Positions 24,155 through 32,975 of a DNA stretch of 64,000 nucleotides are shown here, piece after piece. The notes beneath the pieces were generated by a model. That model was not told where the DNA came from, did no database searches, and saw only the letters and a program-made list of their open reading frames with translations. Position numbers and translations under genes: made by a program. Source of the DNA: Actinokineospora baliensis. Its GTDB lineage: Bacteria > Actinomycetota > Actinomycetes > Mycobacteriales > Pseudonocardiaceae. Within the stretch, counting starts at the first letter, position 1, and each line of letters begins with the position of its first letter. Where the stretch lies: NCBI RefSeq assembly GCF_016907695.1, contig NZ_JAFBCK010000001.1, positions 2,170,001 to 2,234,000 on the forward strand. The letters run 5' to 3'.

Positions 24155-24170
24155 CAGGTTGGGAGAGACA

Positions 24171-25100
24171 ATGGGACGCTACGTCCTCCGACGACTACTA
24201 CAGCTGATCCCGGTGTTCATCGGGACCACCTTCCTGATCTACTGGCTGGTCTGGAGCCTTCCCGGCGACCCGTTCTCCGGCAAGTGCGGCGACCGCCCGT
24301 GCCCGGACTCCTACGTCCAGGCGATGGTCGACAAGTTCAACCTCGACGACCCGCTGGTCGTGCAGTACGGCAAGTACATGCTCAACGTCCTGCAGGGCAA
24401 CTTCGGCGAGACCTTCCGGGGCCTCGACGTCGGCGAGCTCATCGGTGAGGCCTACCCGAACACGATCCGCCTCGCGCTCGTCGCGCTGGCGATCGAGGCC
24501 GTCATCGGTTTGGCCGCTGGCATCCTGACCGGTCTGCGCGGCCGTGGGTTCCTGGACAACCTGGTCCTGGTCTCCACCCTGTTCCTGATCTCGCTGCCGG
24601 TGTTCGTCACCGGTTTCGTCCTGCAGATCACTCTCGGGTTCGAGCTCAAGTGGATCAAGACCACGGTCTCGGCGTCACCGGCGCCGTGGGAGCACCTCAT
24701 CGTGCCCGGATTCGTCCTCGGCAGCCTGTCCATGGCCTACGTGACCAGGTTGACCAGGACCTCCATCGCGGAGAACAAGCGCGCGGACTACGTCAGGACC
24801 GCGACCGCCAAGGGCCTGCGCCAGCGGCGCGTGGTCGGCGTGCACCTGCTGCGCAACTCCGCCATCCCCGTGGTGACGTTCCTCGGTACCGACCTGGGCG
24901 CCCTCATGGGCGGCGCCATCGTCACCGAGGGCATCTTCGACATCAAGGGCATCGGCAGCCTGGTCTACGACGGCATCCTCGGCAAGGAAGGGGTAACGGT
25001 CACCGGCGTCGTCACGCTGCTGGTGATGGTCTACCTGTTGTCGAACCTGCTGGTGGACCTGCTGTATGCCGTCCTCGACCCAAGGATCCGCTATGACTGA
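24171..25100 (+). CDS. Oligopeptide ABC transporter permease (OppB/DppB type)
   Basis: The 309-residue inner-membrane protein starts MGRYVLRRLLQLIPVFIGTTF, the usual DppB/OppB opening, and has about six membrane segments. The cytoplasmic EAA-type loop reads KRADYVRTATAKGLRQRRVVGVH, the contact with the ATPases. The C terminus NLLVDLLYAVLDPRIRYD is diagnostic. The ATG at 24171 has a GGGAGAG ribosome binding site. It overlaps the next permease gene by 8 bp. With the partner permease it forms the channel for peptides delivered by the upstream lipoprotein. Confidence 0.94.
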   Translation: MGRYVLRRLLQLIPVFIGTTFLIYWLVWSLPGDPFSGKCGDRPCPDSYVQAMVDKFNLDDPLVVQYGKYMLNVLQGNFGETFRGLDVGELIGEAYPNTIRLALVALAIEAVIGLAAGILTGLRGRGFLDNLVLVSTLFLISLPVFVTGFVLQITLGFELKWIKTTVSASPAPWEHLIVPGFVLGSLSMAYVTRLTRTSIAENKRADYVRTATAKGLRQRRVVGVHLLRNSAIPVVTFLGTDLGALMGGAIVTEGIFDIKGIGSLVYDGILGKEGVTVTGVVTLLVMVYLLSNLLVDLLYAVLDPRIRYD

Positions 25101-26046
25101 CCCGAGCACCGCAAGCACGGTGACGACCTCACCGGAGGAGTTCGTCACCGCCGCGGAGCACGCCGAGGTCAAGGGCAGCAAGCCCCGCAGCCTCGCCTCC
25201 GACGCCTGGCACGACCTGCGCAGGCGCCCGCTGTTCATCGTCTCGGCGGCGATGATCCTGCTCGTGCTGCTCATGGCGTTCTGGCCGAGCCTGTTCACCT
25301 CGGTGGACCCGAACTACGCCGAACTGGGCAAGAGCCGCGAGGGACCCTCCGCCGCCGCCTGGTTCGGCTACGACAACCAGGGCTACGACCTGTTCTCCCG
25401 CACGATCTACGGGAGCCGGGCCTCGATCATCGTTGGTGTGGCGGCGACCCTGCTCACCGTGCTGATCGGATCGACCTTCGGCCTGCTCGCCGGTTACTAC
25501 GGCGGCTGGCTCGACGGCCTCATGTCGCGCATCGCCGACGTGTTCTTCGGCCTGCCGTTCGTCCTCGGCGCCATCGTCATCCTGTCCAGCTTCCGCTCCA
25601 GCGGCGAGACCAGCCCGACCCAGATCATCTTCCTGGTCGTGCTGTCCATCTCGATCCTGTCCTGGCCGGTGTGCATGCGGATCATGCGGTCGGCGGCCAT
25701 CGCGGCCAAGCAGCAGGACTACGTCAAGGCCGCCCGCGCCCTGGGCGCGAGCACCTCGCGGATCATCCTGCGGCACATGCTGCCCAACGCGGTCGCGCCC
25801 GTGCTGGTCTACGCGACCATCGCGCTCGGCGCGTTCATCGGGGCCGAGGCCACGCTGTCGTTCCTGGGCATCGGCCTGCGCGCGCCGGTCGTGTCGTGGG
25901 GCGTGATGATCTCGGACTCGCGCGACGTGATCCGGGTCGCCCCGCACAGCCTGCTGTTCCCAGCCGCGTTCCTGACCGCGACCGTGCTCGCCTTCGTGAT
26001 GCTCGGCGACGCCGTGCGCGAAGCGCTGGACCCCAAGGCGAGGTAG
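25093..26046 (+). CDS. Oligopeptide ABC transporter permease (OppC/DppC type)
   Basis: The 317-residue membrane protein has an N-terminal cytoplasmic segment (DAWHDLRRRPLFIVSAAMILL) and the OppC_N layout. GYDNQGYDLFSRTIYGSRASI is typical of this family. Its EAA loop is QDYVKAARALGASTSRIILRHMLPN. The end ATVLAFVMLGDAVREALDPKA is also family-typical. Translation is coupled to the upstream permease by an 8-bp overlap. The product pairs with the OppB-type subunit. Confidence 0.94.
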   Translation: MTDPSTASTVTTSPEEFVTAAEHAEVKGSKPRSLASDAWHDLRRRPLFIVSAAMILLVLLMAFWPSLFTSVDPNYAELGKSREGPSAAAWFGYDNQGYDLFSRTIYGSRASIIVGVAATLLTVLIGSTFGLLAGYYGGWLDGLMSRIADVFFGLPFVLGAIVILSSFRSSGETSPTQIIFLVVLSISILSWPVCMRIMRSAAIAAKQQDYVKAARALGASTSRIILRHMLPNAVAPVLVYATIALGAFIGAEATLSFLGIGLRAPVVSWGVMISDSRDVIRVAPHSLLFPAAFLTATVLAFVMLGDAVREALDPKAR

Positions 26047-26050
26047 CGCA

Positions 26051-27077
26051 ATGACCACCACAAGGTCCGAAGTGGACTTCGAAGAGACCGGGCAGGTTCC
26101 CGGGGCCCCGCTGCTGGAAGTCGACAACCTGTTCGTCGAGTTCCGCACCCGCGACGGGGTGGCCAAGGTGCTCAACGGCGTCAGCTACCGGGTCGAGCCC
26201 GGCGAGACGCTCGCCGTGCTCGGGGAATCCGGGTCCGGCAAGTCGGTGACCGCGCAGACGGTCATGGGCATCCTGGACATGCCGCCGGGGTACATCACCG
26301 GCGGCGAGATCCGGTTCCACGGCGAGAACCTGCTCAAGGCGTCACCGAGGCGGCGGCGGGAGGTGCGCGGCTCTGGCATCGCCATGATCTTCCAGGACGC
26401 GCTCTCGGCGCTCAACCCGGTTTTCACCGTGGGCTTCCAGATCGAGGAGCAGCTGCGGCTGCGCAAGGGCATGTCCCGGCGCGACTCCCGCAAGCGGGCG
26501 ATCGAGCTGCTCGACCTGGTGAAGATCCCCAACGCCAAGGGCCGGGTGCGCCAGTACCCGCACGAGTTCTCCGGCGGCATGCGCCAGCGCGCGATGATCG
26601 CGATGTCGCTGGCGCTCGACCCGGAGATGCTCATCGCCGACGAGCCGACCACCGCGCTCGACGTCACCGTGCAGGCCCAGATCATGGACCTGCTCAAGGA
26701 CATCCAGGTCGAGCGGAACATGGGCCTGATCCTGATCACCCACGACCTCGGCGTGGTCGCCGAGGTCGCCGACCGGATCGCGGTCATGTACGCCGGGCGG
26801 ATTGTGGAGCAGTCGCACGCCCGCGACCTCTACCGCCGCCCCGGCCACCCCTACACCCAGGGCCTGCTCGACTCGCTGCCCCGGCTCGACCTCAAGGGCA
26901 CCGAGCTGACCACCATCAAGGGGTTGCCGCCGAGCCTGCTCAACATCCCGAAGGGCTGTCCGTTCAACCCCAGGTGCCCGCGCGTGCAGGACATCTGCAA
27001 GACCGAGGTCCCGCCGCAGCACCGGCTGGCCCCCGGTCGGCTCAGCGCCTGCCACTTCGCCGAGGAGCTGATCAGCG

Positions 27078-27085
<8 letters not shown>
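26051..27085 (+). CDS. Oligopeptide ABC transporter ATP-binding protein (OppD type)
   Basis: The 344-residue cytoplasmic ATPase contains Walker [14 protein letters not shown]-loop [11 protein letters not shown], signature [12 protein letters not shown], Walker [12 protein letters not shown] and switch histidine ITHDLG. The C-terminal oligopeptide-transporter extension has the cysteines of [18 protein letters not shown], which in this family can bind an iron-sulfur cluster. It starts four bases after the permease stop and overlaps the next ATPase gene by 8 bp. Confidence 0.95.
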
Positions 27086-28076
<991 letters not shown>

Positions 28077-28119: not shown

Positions 28120-29850
28120 GTGAATCGTCGCAAACTGGTCGGTGCCGCGCTCGCGGTACCGCTGGTGGTGTCGCTAGCCGGGCTGGTCGCGCCGACCGTG
28201 GCCAACGCCCAGCCCGCGTTGTCCGGCAAGACCGTCGAGTTCAACGTCCTGGCCGCTGACGGCGCGTCCGTCGAGTCGGTCGAGGCCGCTGTCCGCGCGG
28301 CGGGTGGCACCGTCGTGACCAGCAACAAGGCGGCGGGTCTGATCACCGCCACCGCGCCCGAGAACGGCTTCACGGCCCGGCTCGCGGGCAACAGGGCGGT
28401 CGACACGGCCGCCCGCTCGAAGTCCATCGGCCAGTCCCCGCGCGGCTCGAAGGCGGCCAAGTCCAAGGCCGTCGAGCAGGAGGCCCGCGCGGCCAAGGCG
28501 GGCAAGAAGAAGTCCCCGAAGGCGACGACGGCGGGCATGGACCCGTTGGACTCGCTGGCGTGGGGTCTGACCGCGGTCCGCTCGGACCTGGCCCGCACCA
28601 AGCAGGCCGGGGACAAGCGGGTCAAGGTCGGCATCCTGGACACGGGTGTGGACGCCTCGCACCCGGACATCGCGCCCAACTTCGACCGGGCCCTGTCGCG
28701 CAACTTCACCCGCGACATCCCGTTCGACGAGAACGGCGAGGTCGTCGACGGCCCCTGTGAGTACCGGGGCTGCGTCGACCCCGCGGACGTCGACAACGGC
28801 GGCCACGGCACGCACGTCGCGGGCACCATCGCCGCGGCGGCCGACGGCTTCGGCATCTCCGGTGTCGCGCCTGGCGTGTCCATCGTCAACATCCGCGGTG
28901 GCCAGGACTCCGGCTTCTTCTTCCTGCAGCCGGTCGTCGACGCCATGACCTACTCCGGTGACGCGGGCCTCGACGTGGTCAACATGTCGTTCTACGTGGA
29001 CCCGTGGCTGTTCAACTGTGCCAACAACGCGGCGGACACCCCGGAGCAGCGCGCCGAGCAGCGCTTGGTCGTCCGCTCGATCAACCGGGCGATGGAGTAC
29101 GCCCACCGCAAGGGCGTCAGCCAGATCGTGTCGCTGGGCAACGGGCACATGGACCTGGGCAACCCGTTGCCCGACTCCAGCAGCCCCGACTACCCGGCAG
29201 GCACGTCGTACCCGCGCACGATCGACAACGCGACCTGCTTCTCGCTGCCGATCGAGGGCCCGCACGCGATCGGCGTCAGCTCCTACGGCCCGTCGCAGGC
29301 CAAGGCCGACTACTCCAACTACGGCACCGAGCGCATCTCGGTGTCGGCCCCCGGCGGGTACTTCCGGGACGGTTTCGGCACGGACTGGTACCGCACCAAC
29401 GAGAACCTCATCCTCTCGACCTACCCCCGCAACGTGGCGCTGACCGAAGGCGCGATCGACGAGGCGGGCAACGTCACCCCGGACGGTGAGGCGCTCGGTG
29501 TGCAGAAGGCCTGCAAGGCCAACGGCACCTGCGGCTACTACCAGTACCTCCAGGGCACCTCGATGGCCTCCCCCCACGCCTCCGGCGTGGCGGCCCTCAT
29601 CGTGTCCCAGTACGGCGACTACACCCGCAACGGTGTGACCCTCGCGCCGGACAAGGTCAAGAAGGTCCTCGAGGGCACCGCCGCGGAGATCGCCTGCCCC
29701 ACCCCGCGCACGGTGGACTACACCCCCATCGGCCGCCCGGCCGAGTTCAACGCCACCTGCACGGGCTCCCCGTCGTTCAACAACTTCTACGGCCACGGCT
29801 CTGTGGACGCGTGGAACGCGGTGACCAACGGTCGCAAGTACCTGAAGTAG
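28120..29850 (+). CDS. Secreted S8 family serine peptidase (subtilisin-like)
   Basis: The 576-residue exported protease has a Sec signal (about residues 1-30) and a propeptide-like region rich in lysine/alanine. The S8 catalytic triad is GILDTGVDASHPD (Asp), DNGGHGTHVAGTI (His) and GTSMASPHASGVAAL (Ser). A GAGGAGGAG ribosome binding site precedes the GTG. A strong terminator follows the stop. It lies downstream of the peptide transporter, so extracellular proteolysis coupled to uptake is a reasonable inference. A role in maturing the nearby RiPP is possible but unsupported. Confidence 0.93.
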   Translation: MNRRKLVGAALAVPLVVSLAGLVAPTVANAQPALSGKTVEFNVLAADGASVESVEAAVRAAGGTVVTSNKAAGLITATAPENGFTARLAGNRAVDTAARSKSIGQSPRGSKAAKSKAVEQEARAAKAGKKKSPKATTAGMDPLDSLAWGLTAVRSDLARTKQAGDKRVKVGILDTGVDASHPDIAPNFDRALSRNFTRDIPFDENGEVVDGPCEYRGCVDPADVDNGGHGTHVAGTIAAAADGFGISGVAPGVSIVNIRGGQDSGFFFLQPVVDAMTYSGDAGLDVVNMSFYVDPWLFNCANNAADTPEQRAEQRLVVRSINRAMEYAHRKGVSQIVSLGNGHMDLGNPLPDSSSPDYPAGTSYPRTIDNATCFSLPIEGPHAIGVSSYGPSQAKADYSNYGTERISVSAPGGYFRDGFGTDWYRTNENLILSTYPRNVALTEGAIDEAGNVTPDGEALGVQKACKANGTCGYYQYLQGTSMASPHASGVAALIVSQYGDYTRNGVTLAPDKVKKVLEGTAAEIACPTPRTVDYTPIGRPAEFNATCTGSPSFNNFYGHGSVDAWNAVTNGRKYLK

Positions 29851-29867
29851 TTCCCGCTTGACGGACA

Positions 29868-29896
29868 AGGCCCCCCGGCTCCTGCCGGGGGGCCTT
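29868..29896. terminator. Intrinsic terminator between convergent subtilisin and methyltransferase genes
   Basis: AGGCCCCCCGGC and GCCGGGGGGCCT form a stem of about 12 bp with a 5-base loop, followed by TTCTG. It lies between convergent genes and could serve both strands. Confidence 0.85.
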
Positions 29897-29909
29897 TCTG
29901 CAGTTCCAC

Positions 29910-30653
29910 TTAGGACGCTCGTCGATAGGCGGTCAGTACGCTCCGTGCGCCGTAGAGGTTGGTGTGGAAGGGACTGTGGCCCAGGGGAGTCCAGCGCTCG
30001 GTGAGTTCGGTGAAGAACTCGCGGTCTCCGCAGACCTCCGGGTTCTGCTCACCCGCGTAGATCACCGTGTCACCCGGGTAGGCCGCGAGGGCGGCGGTGG
30101 TCAGGCCGCCCGGTGGTGGCCAGGACAGGAACAGGGCGCGGTCGCCGTGGGCGGCTGCGGTGGTCGCGGTGCCGGGGTGGACCGGGTGGAAGGGGGCGAC
30201 TCCGTCCAACCAAGCAGTGCTGGCCTGGCCGCCCGCGTCGACGGCGAGGACGTCCACGTCGAGTTGTGCCAGTTGCCAGGCCCAGTAGCCGAGGCCTGCC
30301 CCGAGGTCGAGGACCGGGCGGCCTGCCAGGTGTTCCAGCAGCCAGGTGAGGTCCCCCGGGCTGGGCAGCGACCACGCCAGCCGCCGTTGGGGGACCCACC
30401 AGCCGAAGGGGCCGTGCGGGGGCGGGAGGACTTCCACCAGCACCCCGGATCCGGGGACCGGCAGCGGTCGCTCGTGCACCGGTGCGGCCAGTGCCAGGTC
30501 CCAGTACGGGTTCACCGTCACCTGGGGCGCGTCCAGCGGCCCGCCGACCAGTGTCCGCACCGGTGCGCCGGACAGCGACACCGCGCCGGTCGCGGTCCAG
30601 TGGCGGGTGCCGATCTCCAGCAGTGCCTTGGCGTGCGCGGGGATCACAGCCAT
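29910..30653 (-). CDS. Class I SAM-dependent methyltransferase of the YcaO-TfuA cluster
   Basis: The 247-residue protein has the SAM-binding glycine-rich motif PVLDLGAGLGYWAWQLAQL near residue 115, then VDVLAVDAGG, and the late FFTELTERWTPLGH. Its N-terminal 100 residues are less familiar. The ATG at 30651-30653 lies inside the tfuA 3' end (10-bp overlap), so translation is coupled to the thioamidation enzymes. I infer that it methylates the modified peptide, for example a histidine side chain, the N terminus or the C terminus. The target atom cannot be read from sequence. It is the last gene of the cluster and converges on the subtilisin. Confidence 0.75.
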   Translation of the reverse strand: MAVIPAHAKALLEIGTRHWTATGAVSLSGAPVRTLVGGPLDAPQVTVNPYWDLALAAPVHERPLPVPGSGVLVEVLPPPHGPFGWWVPQRRLAWSLPSPGDLTWLLEHLAGRPVLDLGAGLGYWAWQLAQLDVDVLAVDAGGQASTAWLDGVAPFHPVHPGTATTAAAHGDRALFLSWPPPGGLTTAALAAYPGDTVIYAGEQNPEVCGDREFFTELTERWTPLGHSPFHTNLYGARSVLTAYRRAS

Positions 30654-31282
30654 GGTCGTCGGGTCGCGAACTCGACCAGGTCGGTGGTCTTCACCCGGTG
30701 CTCGGGTAGCCGGGCCAGCGCGGCGGCCGCCGCCTGCGGGGGCAGGTGGGCCTCCAGGGCCACCCGGAGCGCGTGGTGGGTGCGCTCGGCGTACCAGCGG
30801 TTCTTCAGCTCGGCGAGCACGGCCCGGGCCGCGGGTTCGGTCAGCGTGCCGTCCGCGACGAGCGCGGCCACCAGCGACCGGATGTGCACCATCGGCTCGG
30901 ACATCGGCCGGTGCGGCGCTTCCGCGGCGTGCAGGAGGGTCACCTCGTCGTCGCTGAAGCCGGGGTCGTCGGCGTAGCGCTGGTACACCGCGCCGAAGCC
31001 GCGCATGCCGAGGTGGCGCATCTCGGCCGCGCGGATCGCGCCCATCGAGGACAGGCCCCACACCCGCCACCCGCGGTCGAGCGCCGCGCGCAGCTCCGCG
31101 TGCCCCACCGAGGGGTAGCTGTGGAAGGTCCCGTCGACGACGACCAGCACGCCCGGGTCCGCCGAGTCGACCACCGCGGCCACGTCCCCCCGTCGCACCG
31201 GCGGCAATATCCGCGCGCTGGCGGGGAACAGCGGCGGGAGCCCGTGCGCGGTCGGTCCCAGGAACACGACGACCCCGGTCAC
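30644..31282 (-). CDS. tfuA: TfuA-like protein (thioamidation partner of YcaO)
   Basis: The 212-residue protein begins with GTG overlapping the ycaO stop as GTGA. Family hallmarks are VVVFLGPTAHG at the N terminus, VVDGTFHSYPSVGHAELRAAL, then the highly conserved GWRVWGLSSMGAIRAAEM, GMRGFGAVYQRYAD and DDEVTLLHA. TfuA proteins act with YcaO enzymes in thioamide formation, shown for methyl-coenzyme M reductase in methanogens and for thioviridamide-type RiPPs. They are proposed to deliver sulfide from a sulfur donor. Presence next to a stand-alone YcaO and a repeat-containing small peptide defines this cluster as a probable thioamide RiPP locus. Confidence 0.93.
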   Translation of the reverse strand: MTGVVVFLGPTAHGLPPLFPASARILPPVRRGDVAAVVDSADPGVLVVVDGTFHSYPSVGHAELRAALDRGWRVWGLSSMGAIRAAEMRHLGMRGFGAVYQRYADDPGFSDDEVTLLHAAEAPHRPMSEPMVHIRSLVAALVADGTLTEPAARAVLAELKNRWYAERTHHALRVALEAHLPPQAAAAALARLPEHRVKTTDLVEFATRRPWL

Positions 31283-32463
31283 CGCGCACCTGCCAGTCGT
31301 GGGCCGACCCTGGGGAGCCCGGGGTCGAACGACTCCATTCCCGGCACGATCACCCTGACCACGGCCAACGGCGAGTCCGGTTCGGACAGAACCACGCGGT
31401 AGACGTGCGGGAAGCCTTTTCGCCGCAGCATATCCAACAGATCATCCAAAGTAGACTCAACGCTCGGTGCTCGGCCCGGCGCGATGTCGGAGAACAGCAC
31501 CGCGCCTGCGTCGTCGGTCAGCTTCGCCCGCAGGGCGGCCACCGCGGCCAGTTCTTCCGTTCCCTCGGCGGCGAAGTAGCGGATCCGGTTCACCAGGTCG
31601 TCGCGGCCGCCGTGGATGCTGGTCAACCGGGACTGCGCTGCCTCGCACACCGCGCGCACGGCCGCGATGTCGCGCAGCGGGTGCAGACCCACGCCGTAGG
31701 CGATCGCGATCGGTGCCGCGTCGTCGGGTTCGAGCACCGCCGCGGTGAAGTAGGGCAGGTCGAACTCGTTGGGCGTGTGCCGCAGCGCCAAGCGCAGGCC
31801 TGCCGCGTCGATCTTGTCGACCAGTTCCCGCAGTTGCGGCGGTGGCGTGTCCACCTCGACCAGCCGGGACCCGCCGCGCACCTGCTCGAACGAGCCGATG
31901 TCGCGCTCCACCACCTCGGCCAACCCGTGCAGCGTCGCCTCGGTGACCGTGTTGCCCGAGGCCAGGCCGGTCGTGTTTGAGCCGAACAGCCGCTGACCGT
32001 CGTTGTGCCGGTAGGGCGAGAACACCAGTTCGGCGGGCAGTGCCAGTTCGGTGCCGTCGGTGATCTCGTGCGCGGTAACGCAGTCGAGCGGTCCGTGCGG
32101 GTCGACCGGCCTGCCCACAACCGGGCACAGGTCGACGAAGTCGAAAGCCGCGCCCGGCTGGTTGGCCACCGCGTGCGGGGTCGAGGCGAACGCACGGACC
32201 CGGCTGGCGCCGTACTCGGCGTGCGCGTACTCGATGGCCTCCATGACCGCGCCCACCTCGGCCTCGGCCGCCCGCACCCCCTTGCCCGCGGTGACGCACA
32301 GCGAACCGGCGACCGCGGTGGGCCGGATGCCCGCGAACACCGGGATGCCGATCCGGTCCAGCCAGGTCGTGTCGGTGACCCGGGTGATCCCCCACCGCGG
32401 CGCGACCTCCCGCGCCGCGGCGAGGGTCTCGGCCAGCGGTGCCACCCGCAGGCTCGACGTCAT
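31279..32463 (-). CDS. ycaO: YcaO-domain protein (ATP-dependent peptide backbone modification)
   Basis: The protein has about 394 residues from the ATG at 32463; a GTG at 32472 would add three. The YcaO ATP-binding motifs are visible: SLCVTAGKGVRAAEAEVGAV-MEAIEYAHAE, NTTGLASGNTVTEATLHGLAE-VVERD and VCEAAQSRLTSIHGGRDDL. The family phosphorylates amide oxygens of peptides; with TfuA the outcome is a thioamide rather than an azoline. No separate E1-like or ocin-ThiF partner and no azoline dehydrogenase is nearby, which favours the thioamide route. It starts 19-28 bp after the precursor gene and overlaps tfuA by 4 bp. Confidence 0.93.
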   Translation of the reverse strand: MTSSLRVAPLAETLAAAREVAPRWGITRVTDTTWLDRIGIPVFAGIRPTAVAGSLCVTAGKGVRAAEAEVGAVMEAIEYAHAEYGASRVRAFASTPHAVANQPGAAFDFVDLCPVVGRPVDPHGPLDCVTAHEITDGTELALPAELVFSPYRHNDGQRLFGSNTTGLASGNTVTEATLHGLAEVVERDIGSFEQVRGGSRLVEVDTPPPQLRELVDKIDAAGLRLALRHTPNEFDLPYFTAAVLEPDDAAPIAIAYGVGLHPLRDIAAVRAVCEAAQSRLTSIHGGRDDLVNRIRYFAAEGTEELAAVAALRAKLTDDAGAVLFSDIAPGRAPSVESTLDDLLDMLRRKGFPHVYRVVLSEPDSPLAVVRVIVPGMESFDPGLPRVGPRLAGAR

Positions 32464-32491
32464 GCGGTGCACGTGCTGGTCCGCGCCCGGC

Positions 32492-32857
32492 TCAGGCGGT
32501 GGCCGCGGCTGGCTCGTCGACCCCGCTGTCGTGCAGGCGCATGTGCATCGCGAAGCCTGCGCGGGTGGCGCCGTCCTCGGCGAGCGCGCCCCACAGCCGC
32601 TCGGTCGTGGGCCGCTCGACGCCGTCGTCGGTCGCGCAGAGGTGCATGTGCATGGCGAACCCGGCCCGGGTGGCGCCGTCCTCGCCCAGCGCGCCCCACA
32701 GTTGGGCCGTGGTCGGTGCGTTGTCGTCCGTGTTGTGCATCGCCATGTGCATGACGAAGCCTGCGCGGGTGGCGCCGTCCTCGGTCAGCACGTCCCACAG
32801 CCGCGCGGTGGTCGCCTCGTCGAGGGTGTAGTGCGGCTCGTGCTTCTGTGCGGTCAT
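32492..32857 (-). CDS. Putative multi-core RiPP precursor peptide with three Met-His-Met repeats
   Basis: The 121-residue peptide has a short leader (residues 1-14) and then three head-to-tail repeats: 15-47, 48-82 and 83-117. Each follows TT-x-x-LW-x-x-L-x-EDGATRAGF-[VA]-MHM. The core ends differ: MHMAMHNTDD in the first, MHMHLCATDD in the second, MHMRLHDSG in the third. Only the second contains cysteine. At DNA level the block encoding EDGATRAGF is almost invariant, while the flanks vary. The gene lies directly upstream of ycaO-tfuA, and no other function is recognisable. Repeated cores are known in thiovarsolin-type precursors. Leader/core borders and cleavage sites are inferred. Confidence 0.8.
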   Translation of the reverse strand: MTAQKHEPHYTLDEATTARLWDVLTEDGATRAGFVMHMAMHNTDDNAPTTAQLWGALGEDGATRAGFAMHMHLCATDDGVERPTTERLWGALAEDGATRAGFAMHMRLHDSGVDEPAAATA

Positions 32858-32904
32858 CGTCGATCATCCCCAGTCCGGGGAGCGCGCGCCCCCCTGTGCA
32901 CCCG

Positions 32905-32934
32905 AGGCTACGCACGGCGGAAACCGGGCCGCAA
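32905..32934 (-). promoter_or_regulatory. Candidate promoter for the precursor-ycaO-tfuA-methyltransferase operon
   Basis: On the minus strand, TTGCGG (32929-32934) and TAGCCT (32905-32910) are separated by 18 bases. Transcription would start near 32898, giving a leader of about 40 nt with a weak CTGGGGATG ribosome binding site before the ATG at 32857. Confidence 0.5.
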
Positions 32935-32962
32935 CGAAACCGGCAGCTTGAGCCCGTTGATG

Positions 32963-32975
32963 GTCCACAATGGAC
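32963..32975. promoter_or_regulatory. Small palindrome upstream of the precursor promoter
   Basis: GTCCA-CAA-TGGAC is centred about 35 bp upstream of the candidate -35 element. It is a possible operator for the XRE regulator encoded upstream (inference). Confidence 0.35.

Follow-up and report, generated by a model that had tools for sequence, protein, structure and literature searches.

A compact YcaO-TfuA cluster with a tripled leader-plus-core precursor in Actinokineospora baliensis and its likely role in peptide thioamidation

A four-gene cluster with a repeat-built precursor

We analyzed a 64,000-nucleotide stretch of the Actinokineospora baliensis genome (assembly GCF_016907695.1, one 7.68-Mb contig, NZ_JAFBCK010000001.1, positions 2,170,001 to 2,234,000; hereafter the window), in which the minus strand at 29910-32857 encodes four genes arranged head to tail, in the transcription order precursor peptide, YcaO, TfuA and methyltransferase-like gene (Table 1). 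An earlier note, written from the sequence alone, had read these genes as a minimal cluster for a new thioamidated RiPP (ribosomally synthesized and post-translationally modified peptide). The gene content that it listed was borne out, as all four open reading frames (ORFs) are present. Its spacing of 19-28 bp or overlap was right in part: 19 bp separate the precursor from ycaO, ycaO and tfuA overlap by 4 bases and tfuA and the methyltransferase gene by 10, and there is no 28-bp gap. The minus strand within the island edges is fully taken by the four genes, which the other ORFs listed there overlap. Pfam and NCBIfam scans found no dehydrogenase, lanthipeptide-like enzyme or decarboxylase among the four cluster proteins, in agreement with the note.

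Table 1. Features of the cluster, in window coordinates
Feature	Position	Strand	Evidence
Precursor peptide, 121 aa, three leader-plus-core units	32492..32857	minus	ORF, repeat test, unit profile
Unit 1, LDEATTARLWDVLTEDGATRAGFVMHMAMH, aa 12-41, core AGFVMHM, Gly33	32735..32824	minus	repeat test, unit profile, row alignment
Unit 2, TTAQLWGALGEDGATRAGFAMHMHLC, aa 49-74, Gly66	32636..32713	minus	repeat test, unit profile, row alignment
Unit 3, TTERLWGALAEDGATRAGFAMHMRLH, aa 84-109, Gly101	32531..32608	minus	repeat test, unit profile, row alignment
YcaO, 397 aa	31279..32472	minus	PF02624
TfuA, 212 aa	30644..31282	minus	PF07812
Class I S-adenosylmethionine methyltransferase-like protein, 247 aa	29910..30653	minus	weak Pfam, family motifs, model
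Accessory island, four genes and ~0.1 kb upstream, ~3.06 kb	29905..32963		congener DNA alignment

The precursor peptide is strongly repetitive: its best 24-residue self-match covers 21/24 positions, compared to a maximum of 11/24 across 300 shuffles, and its three units have 18-20 of 24 residues in common pairwise. Each unit pairs a leader-like part, TT..LW..L.ED, with a core, RAGFxMHM; only unit 1 has LD ahead of the leader-like part. The core extends to AGFVMHMAMH, AGFAMHMHLC and AGFAMHMRLH in the three units. None of the three AGFxMHM stretches contains Cys, Ser or Thr; a Cys follows the core in unit 2, and Thr or Ser occurs slightly further along in the units. An NCBIfam scan of the 121-aa peptide returned no family at E <= 1, and a unit profile seeded with units of relatives (8 of the 18 matched loci described below) and of the window gave three matches on the window precursor, all with E 3e-52, the window's own units being among the seeds. 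Each repeat corresponds to almost one entire single-unit precursor of the relatives, leader-like half plus core. Three cores per precursor are probable, as the earlier note had proposed, with the correction that the repeated element is a leader-like part with its core and not the core alone.

Only some of the units might be substrates, the rest being inert duplicates or extra docking sites. Pairs of units differ at 4-6 of 24 positions, and units 2 and 3 miss the leader Asp: of 40 family units filtered at 75% identity, the three of the window included, 39 have a residue at this position, and in 37 it is Asp. Yet EDGATRAGF and MHM are without a residue change in all three, despite 2-7 synonymous codon differences per pair and 11-15 differing bases out of 72, which makes partial use of the units possible, if unlikely.

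The modifying enzymes

The YcaO protein matched PF02624 with E 6e-62 (210.3 bits, cut-off 25.7) and the sequence of the solved structure MJ1094 in the PDB with E 4e-34. Its best NCBIfam match was the thioamidation model TIGR03266 (233.4 bits, cut-off 365), followed by SagD at 105 bits, also under its cut-off, and NF033432 scored 130.7 against a cut-off of 235.2. The N-terminus MHRMTSSLR is common to relatives, and the motifs MEAIE, SGN, ERD and QSR, which we take to be the ATP-binding residues of YcaO, are invariant or nearly so among aligned relatives. The genome has a second YcaO (L070, G000:C1:6221311-6222294), located inside an 895-aa ORF.

TfuA matched PF07812 (E 1.6e-35, 121.9 bits, cut-off 30) and PDB entry 6xp8 (E 1.1e-20), and is the only PF07812 match of the whole genome; Ser79 of its SMGA motif is invariant in 10 aligned TfuA proteins. 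The fourth protein gave Pfam matches only under threshold (Methyltransf_25, E 0.13). GAGxGY and NPYW are invariant in its family of ten (window included), and its model, with a mean predicted local distance difference test score of 78 and a predicted template modeling score of 0.83, matched class I methyltransferases in PDB fold searches. Its best sequence match was the cypemycin N-terminal methyltransferase, at a weak E 0.0075, and neither sequence nor fold searches narrowed the choice of substrate. This methyltransferase family occurs at 3 of the 20 loci compared below, namely the window and its relatives in A. terrae (L003) and Allokutzneria (L004). Allokutzneria albata is the named source of a close homologue.

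A precursor family in two phyla

Searching ~5.8 billion proteins directly with the 121-aa peptide (32 candidates scored) returned only the peptide itself, so the family was reached through the neighbours of YcaO relatives. Nineteen loci from Actinokineospora, Allokutzneria, Actinomadura, Actinoallomurus, Streptomyces, Kitasatospora, Glaciimonas and Pseudomonas encode a YcaO 45-65% identical to that of the window. A precursor unit lies upstream of ycaO in 18 of these 19 relatives, across two phyla, with E values from 1e-21 to 1.3e-11 and a next best match of 0.18; ten of the loci with a unit (nine Pseudomonas, one Allokutzneria) had contributed no seed. The family unit follows the pattern LD..T...F...L.DE, then (R/H)AGFVAH and a variable tail, or LDxxTxxxF...L.DE..xRAGFVAH when written as one string.

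When 11 single-unit precursors were made into a profile, 77 of 1063 candidate proteins matched it at E <= 0.01, including named ones in Lentzea, Micromonospora and several Streptomyces. AGF occurs in 67 of the 77 and AGF..H in 63, and in the 40 filtered units the core positions are Ala in 39, Gly in 39, Phe in 31 and His in 35. Since this search could not return proteins much longer than 100 aa, other multi-unit precursors may exist. The YcaO tree grouped the window with the Actinokineospora and Allokutzneria relatives (support 100/99), and we used this clade only, since the inner branches are weak and two rows, L065 and L018, are very long (the YcaO match of L018 has a base count that is not a multiple of three). 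The nearest single-unit relatives have the cores AGFVAHMSM (A. terrae, L003), AGFILHLD (Allokutzneria, L004) and AGFVMHMGM (G465, of the same genus as the genome of L004).

Several loci showed variants of their own. In the nineteenth locus, L005 from Actinomadura, the profile listed no upstream unit, and a 58-aa ORF opposite ycaO (L005:5658-5834, minus strand) has a leader-like motif, SLDPRTTERVANFLDD / LDPRTTERVANFLDD, and a quite different tail. In the Streptomyces xanthochromogenes precursor (L006:5731-5898) the core alone is doubled (GIQNVC-MYA-GIQNVC) after one leader-like part, a second way to multiply cores within the AGFxxH precursor family. The Pseudomonas frederiksbergensis SI8 precursor (L013:5690-5868) is in two reading frames, broken between leader and core either by a sequencing error or by a true loss. 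A second Pseudomonas branch (L067-L069) has cores AGFVIHESNN and a YcaO 56-57% identical to that of the window, compared to 51% to that of L008.

Accessory genes were counted over 20 loci (the 19 relatives plus the window) by single-linkage BLAST clustering, with family names taken from L007, L008 and L011. A TfuA-family ORF is present in 20/20 loci, an HExxH-hydroxylase-like family in 14, a major facilitator superfamily (MFS) family in 13, ThiS-like and ThiF/rhodanese families in 12 (Pseudomonas and Glaciimonas) and a spermidine-synthase-like family in 11. The description of the cluster as minimal thus holds for the Actinokineospora/Allokutzneria branch, whereas other loci add HExxH, ThiS/ThiF-like and MFS families. 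The HExxH members of L007, L008 and L011 matched the alpha-ketoglutarate (aKG)-HExxH peptide beta-hydroxylase model, L007 and L011 above the cut-off and L008 below it. One aKG-HExxH-type enzyme hydroxylates Asp and His (PMC12636437; here and below, statements from cited papers refer to excerpts of them), so the conserved His would be a natural target of the relatives' enzymes.

These loci also bear on whether the 121-aa peptide stays whole, as a small protein that is modified, carries three Met/His motifs (for example to bind metal) and releases no peptides. Repeat units make up most of the peptide, and the island holds no protease or exporter, the flanking subtilase lying outside it. The relatives' precursors are single units, annotated at 46-64 aa in 69 of the 77 family proteins, MFS genes at 13 of the 20 loci give the usual RiPP layout, and thiovarsolins are released without a cluster protease (PMC6511847, as excerpted). 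We consider an intact protein rather unlikely.

The precursor travels with YcaO

Genome sets were searched for precursor and YcaO together; these are samples obtained through loose first-look filters and not full censuses. Among 297 genomes of the taxonomic family there were 4 precursor matches (profile A3) and 5 YcaO matches (E <= 1e-40): the precursor adjoins YcaO in all four precursor-bearing genomes, and the YcaO without a precursor is a distant one (36% identity). Among 298 Pseudomonas genomes (the genus of G718, the genome of L008) there were again 4 precursor matches, each followed by YcaO and the start of TfuA, which is cut by the locus end. Whole-genome searches of 11 carrier genomes, covering 11 of the 19 loci, found exactly one precursor match in 10, located at the cluster by coordinates in all 10, and no precursor match in the genome carrying L005. 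Homologues of the peptide occurring apart from YcaO and TfuA, which by the earlier note would have told against its proposal, did not turn up: no precursor peptide lay away from YcaO in the three genome sets at the thresholds used. The system is uncommon and scattered in its distribution. In 396 genomes of the phylum, the window's own genome alone gave a YcaO match at E <= 1e-80.

The cluster is an accessory island

Comparison to congeners defined the edges of the cluster. In five congeners without it, the DNA aligns up to 29831-29904 and resumes at 32964-32973, with nothing between. The two flanks face each other in three of these (G015, G005 and G009); in G008 and G003 they are not adjacent, the regulator block being inverted and other genes lying between. 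Two of 16 congeneric genomes carry the cluster (YcaO match, E <= 1e-60), and in the congener G011 the same four genes occupy the same site, the identity being 63-67% for the three enzymes and 41% over 51 aa for the precursor.

The island site beside the subtilase gene (L052-L056) holds a 325-aa ORF in G015, a 454-aa ORF in G005 that is caspase-like by eye, and a short spacer with no ORF passing the filter in G009. Neighbouring genes were considered as cluster parts and set aside: the flanking subtilase, matched at 74-95% in 13/15 congeners of which one has the cluster; the flanking helix-turn-helix regulator, with 56-93% matches in 11/15 congeners, not necessarily at the same place; an S10-peptidase-like gene outside the edges, present in 6/6 compared stretches, five of them without the cluster; and oligopeptide ATP-binding cassette transporter genes (identified by eye, 24159-28076) beyond the island edges. 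The methyltransferase and subtilase genes converge, and between their ends, at 29867-29896, a perfect 13-bp GC-rich hairpin resembles a terminator acting in both directions; the promoter and terminator consensus scan reported nothing, this hairpin included.

Patchiness (2/16 congeners) and the frame-interrupted precursor gene of at least one relative (L013) would also fit a decaying, non-functional island. All four frames are open, however, a second species keeps the same four genes in the same place, and the presumed ATP-binding residues of YcaO are conserved, making decay very improbable. As judged from these features, the cluster is real, intact and probably functional.

Proposed chemistry

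We put at roughly 70% the probability that the window holds a YcaO-TfuA RiPP cluster of this two-phylum precursor family, working as follows. The leader-like part of each unit would be recognized by the enzymes, with RAGFxMHM serving as the core. In each core YcaO would phosphorylate the oxygen of a backbone amide. TfuA would deliver the sulfide, taken from a ThiS-type thiocarboxylate carrier whose gene lies elsewhere, and every unit would gain a single thioamide. The methyltransferase would then probably methylate the core, perhaps on the conserved His or on the new N-terminus left by cleavage, and host proteases would cut the linkers to release up to three closely related peptides (AGFVMHM.. 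and AGFAMHM..).

YcaO proteins perform several reactions, and the enzyme might instead be a cyclodehydratase making azolines from Cys, Ser or Thr, or catalyze another YcaO reaction. The Cys after the unit 2 core, the Thr or Ser further along and the two Cys of the S. xanthochromogenes relative would suit an azoline. The AGF/His core, the lack of Cys, Ser or Thr in the AGFxMHM of the window and the ThiS/ThiF-like genes of Pseudomonas favour backbone thioamidation, as do the TfuA-family ORF at every locus and the ranking of the thioamidation model above SagD. Azoline formation or another YcaO reaction is unlikely, and thioamidation of the precursor is likely on the pattern of genes and cores. 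TfuA frees sulfide from ThiS thiocarboxylate (PMC13185837, PMC13063428), a sulfur route for which the ThiS-like and ThiF/rhodanese families of the relatives are as expected. Within the core, the Gly before Phe is the most likely site for the thioamide, because it is nearly invariant and the thio-Gly that YcaO-TfuA makes in McrA also precedes Phe (Gly465-Phe466; PMC5589413).

Several observations weigh against this scheme. AGF..H is absent in 5 of the 19 relatives (L005, L006, L007, L010 and L020), and 55 of the 63 AGF..H proteins have a Ser as one of the first two residues behind the His, so that the argument against azolines is weaker for the relatives; in the 40 filtered units the post-His column is Ser in 22 and Ala in 11, a Ser count that points the same way, with the Ala rows speaking against an azoline there. 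The four-gene island contains no ThiS/ThiF-like, protease or exporter genes. The parallel with McrA is loose, since the TIGR03266 and NF033432 scores fall well below their equivalog cut-offs, and choosing Gly is a guess in that known thioamides sit on Pro, Asn or Met, the last in uL16.

It is conceivable, though doubtful, that the Actinokineospora/Allokutzneria branch turned an AGFVAHQSNN core into a thioamide core rich in Met and His (and Cys), acting as a three-product or three-site Cu(I) ligand. If so, the thioamide sulfur, thioethers and imidazoles would bind Cu(I), methylation would tune the binding, and triplication would yield three ligands or one three-site binder. The L004 core AGFILHLD has no Met, which speaks against a metal role for the whole branch.

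One ~35-aa unit provides a sequence-defined handle on what would be a thioamide-RiPP family of Actinomycetota and Pseudomonadota. Nature supplies precursors with one unit, with three units and with a duplicated core, alongside related enzyme pairs, and these could be used to test YcaO-TfuA recognition and sulfur placement. The four-gene version is compact enough to be rebuilt in another host.

Comparison with known systems

Thioviridamide-like thioamitides contain a modified His and are made by large clusters with further machinery, including decarboxylase and lanthipeptide-like genes. Their thioamides are installed by YcaO-TfuA (PMC6511847), the same enzyme pair as in the window, where the cluster has four genes and neither of these additional types by Pfam or NCBIfam. 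The McrA thioglycine system (PMC5589413) likewise shares the enzyme pair and modifies a Gly before Phe, comparable to AGF; its substrate is a large archaeal enzyme, and the window enzymes score below its equivalog cut-offs. Streptomyces thermodiastaticus has the std cluster (PMC13174530), whose YcaO-TfuA pair thioamidates Asn in a core that is likewise short and conserved. That system has an SNKEWQE core, an MNIO and a carbamoyltransferase, none of which the window cluster has.

Literature searches, including ones with conserved core strings, found no paper on the chemistry of the family among those read, the supplementary networks of PMC6511847 and PMC8120280 lying outside their scope. The newness that the earlier note proposed is weakened, in that a putative Pseudomonas 'YcaO cluster' was already listed as uncharacterized in 2021 (PMC8719888). 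In the excerpt, this cluster has the precursor-YcaO-TfuA order of the window and a gene list fitting L008-type loci, whose YcaO is 45-48% identical to the window's. It differs by a single-unit precursor and by additional HExxH-hydroxylase-like, ThiS/ubiquitin-like, ThiF-like, MFS and spermidine-synthase-like genes, the last encoding a protein without similarity to the window methyltransferase. From gene order, the excerpt giving no precursor sequence, we infer that this Pseudomonas family belongs to the AGFxxH precursor family.

The thiovarsolins (PMC6511847) share with the window YcaO-TfuA, a repeating precursor and, as excerpted, the lack of a cluster protease. Their core is APR/GPR with a thioamidated Pro, and they have VarO, a heme-oxygenase-like enzyme; neither string occurs in the 121-aa window peptide, and Pfam and NCBIfam found no VarO-like gene among the four island genes. 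The window has a methyltransferase in place of VarO, and its repeats include the leader-like part. Repeat precursors acting with YcaO-TfuA were thus already known from thiovarsolins (PMC6511847), whereas triplication of leader plus core is unusual.

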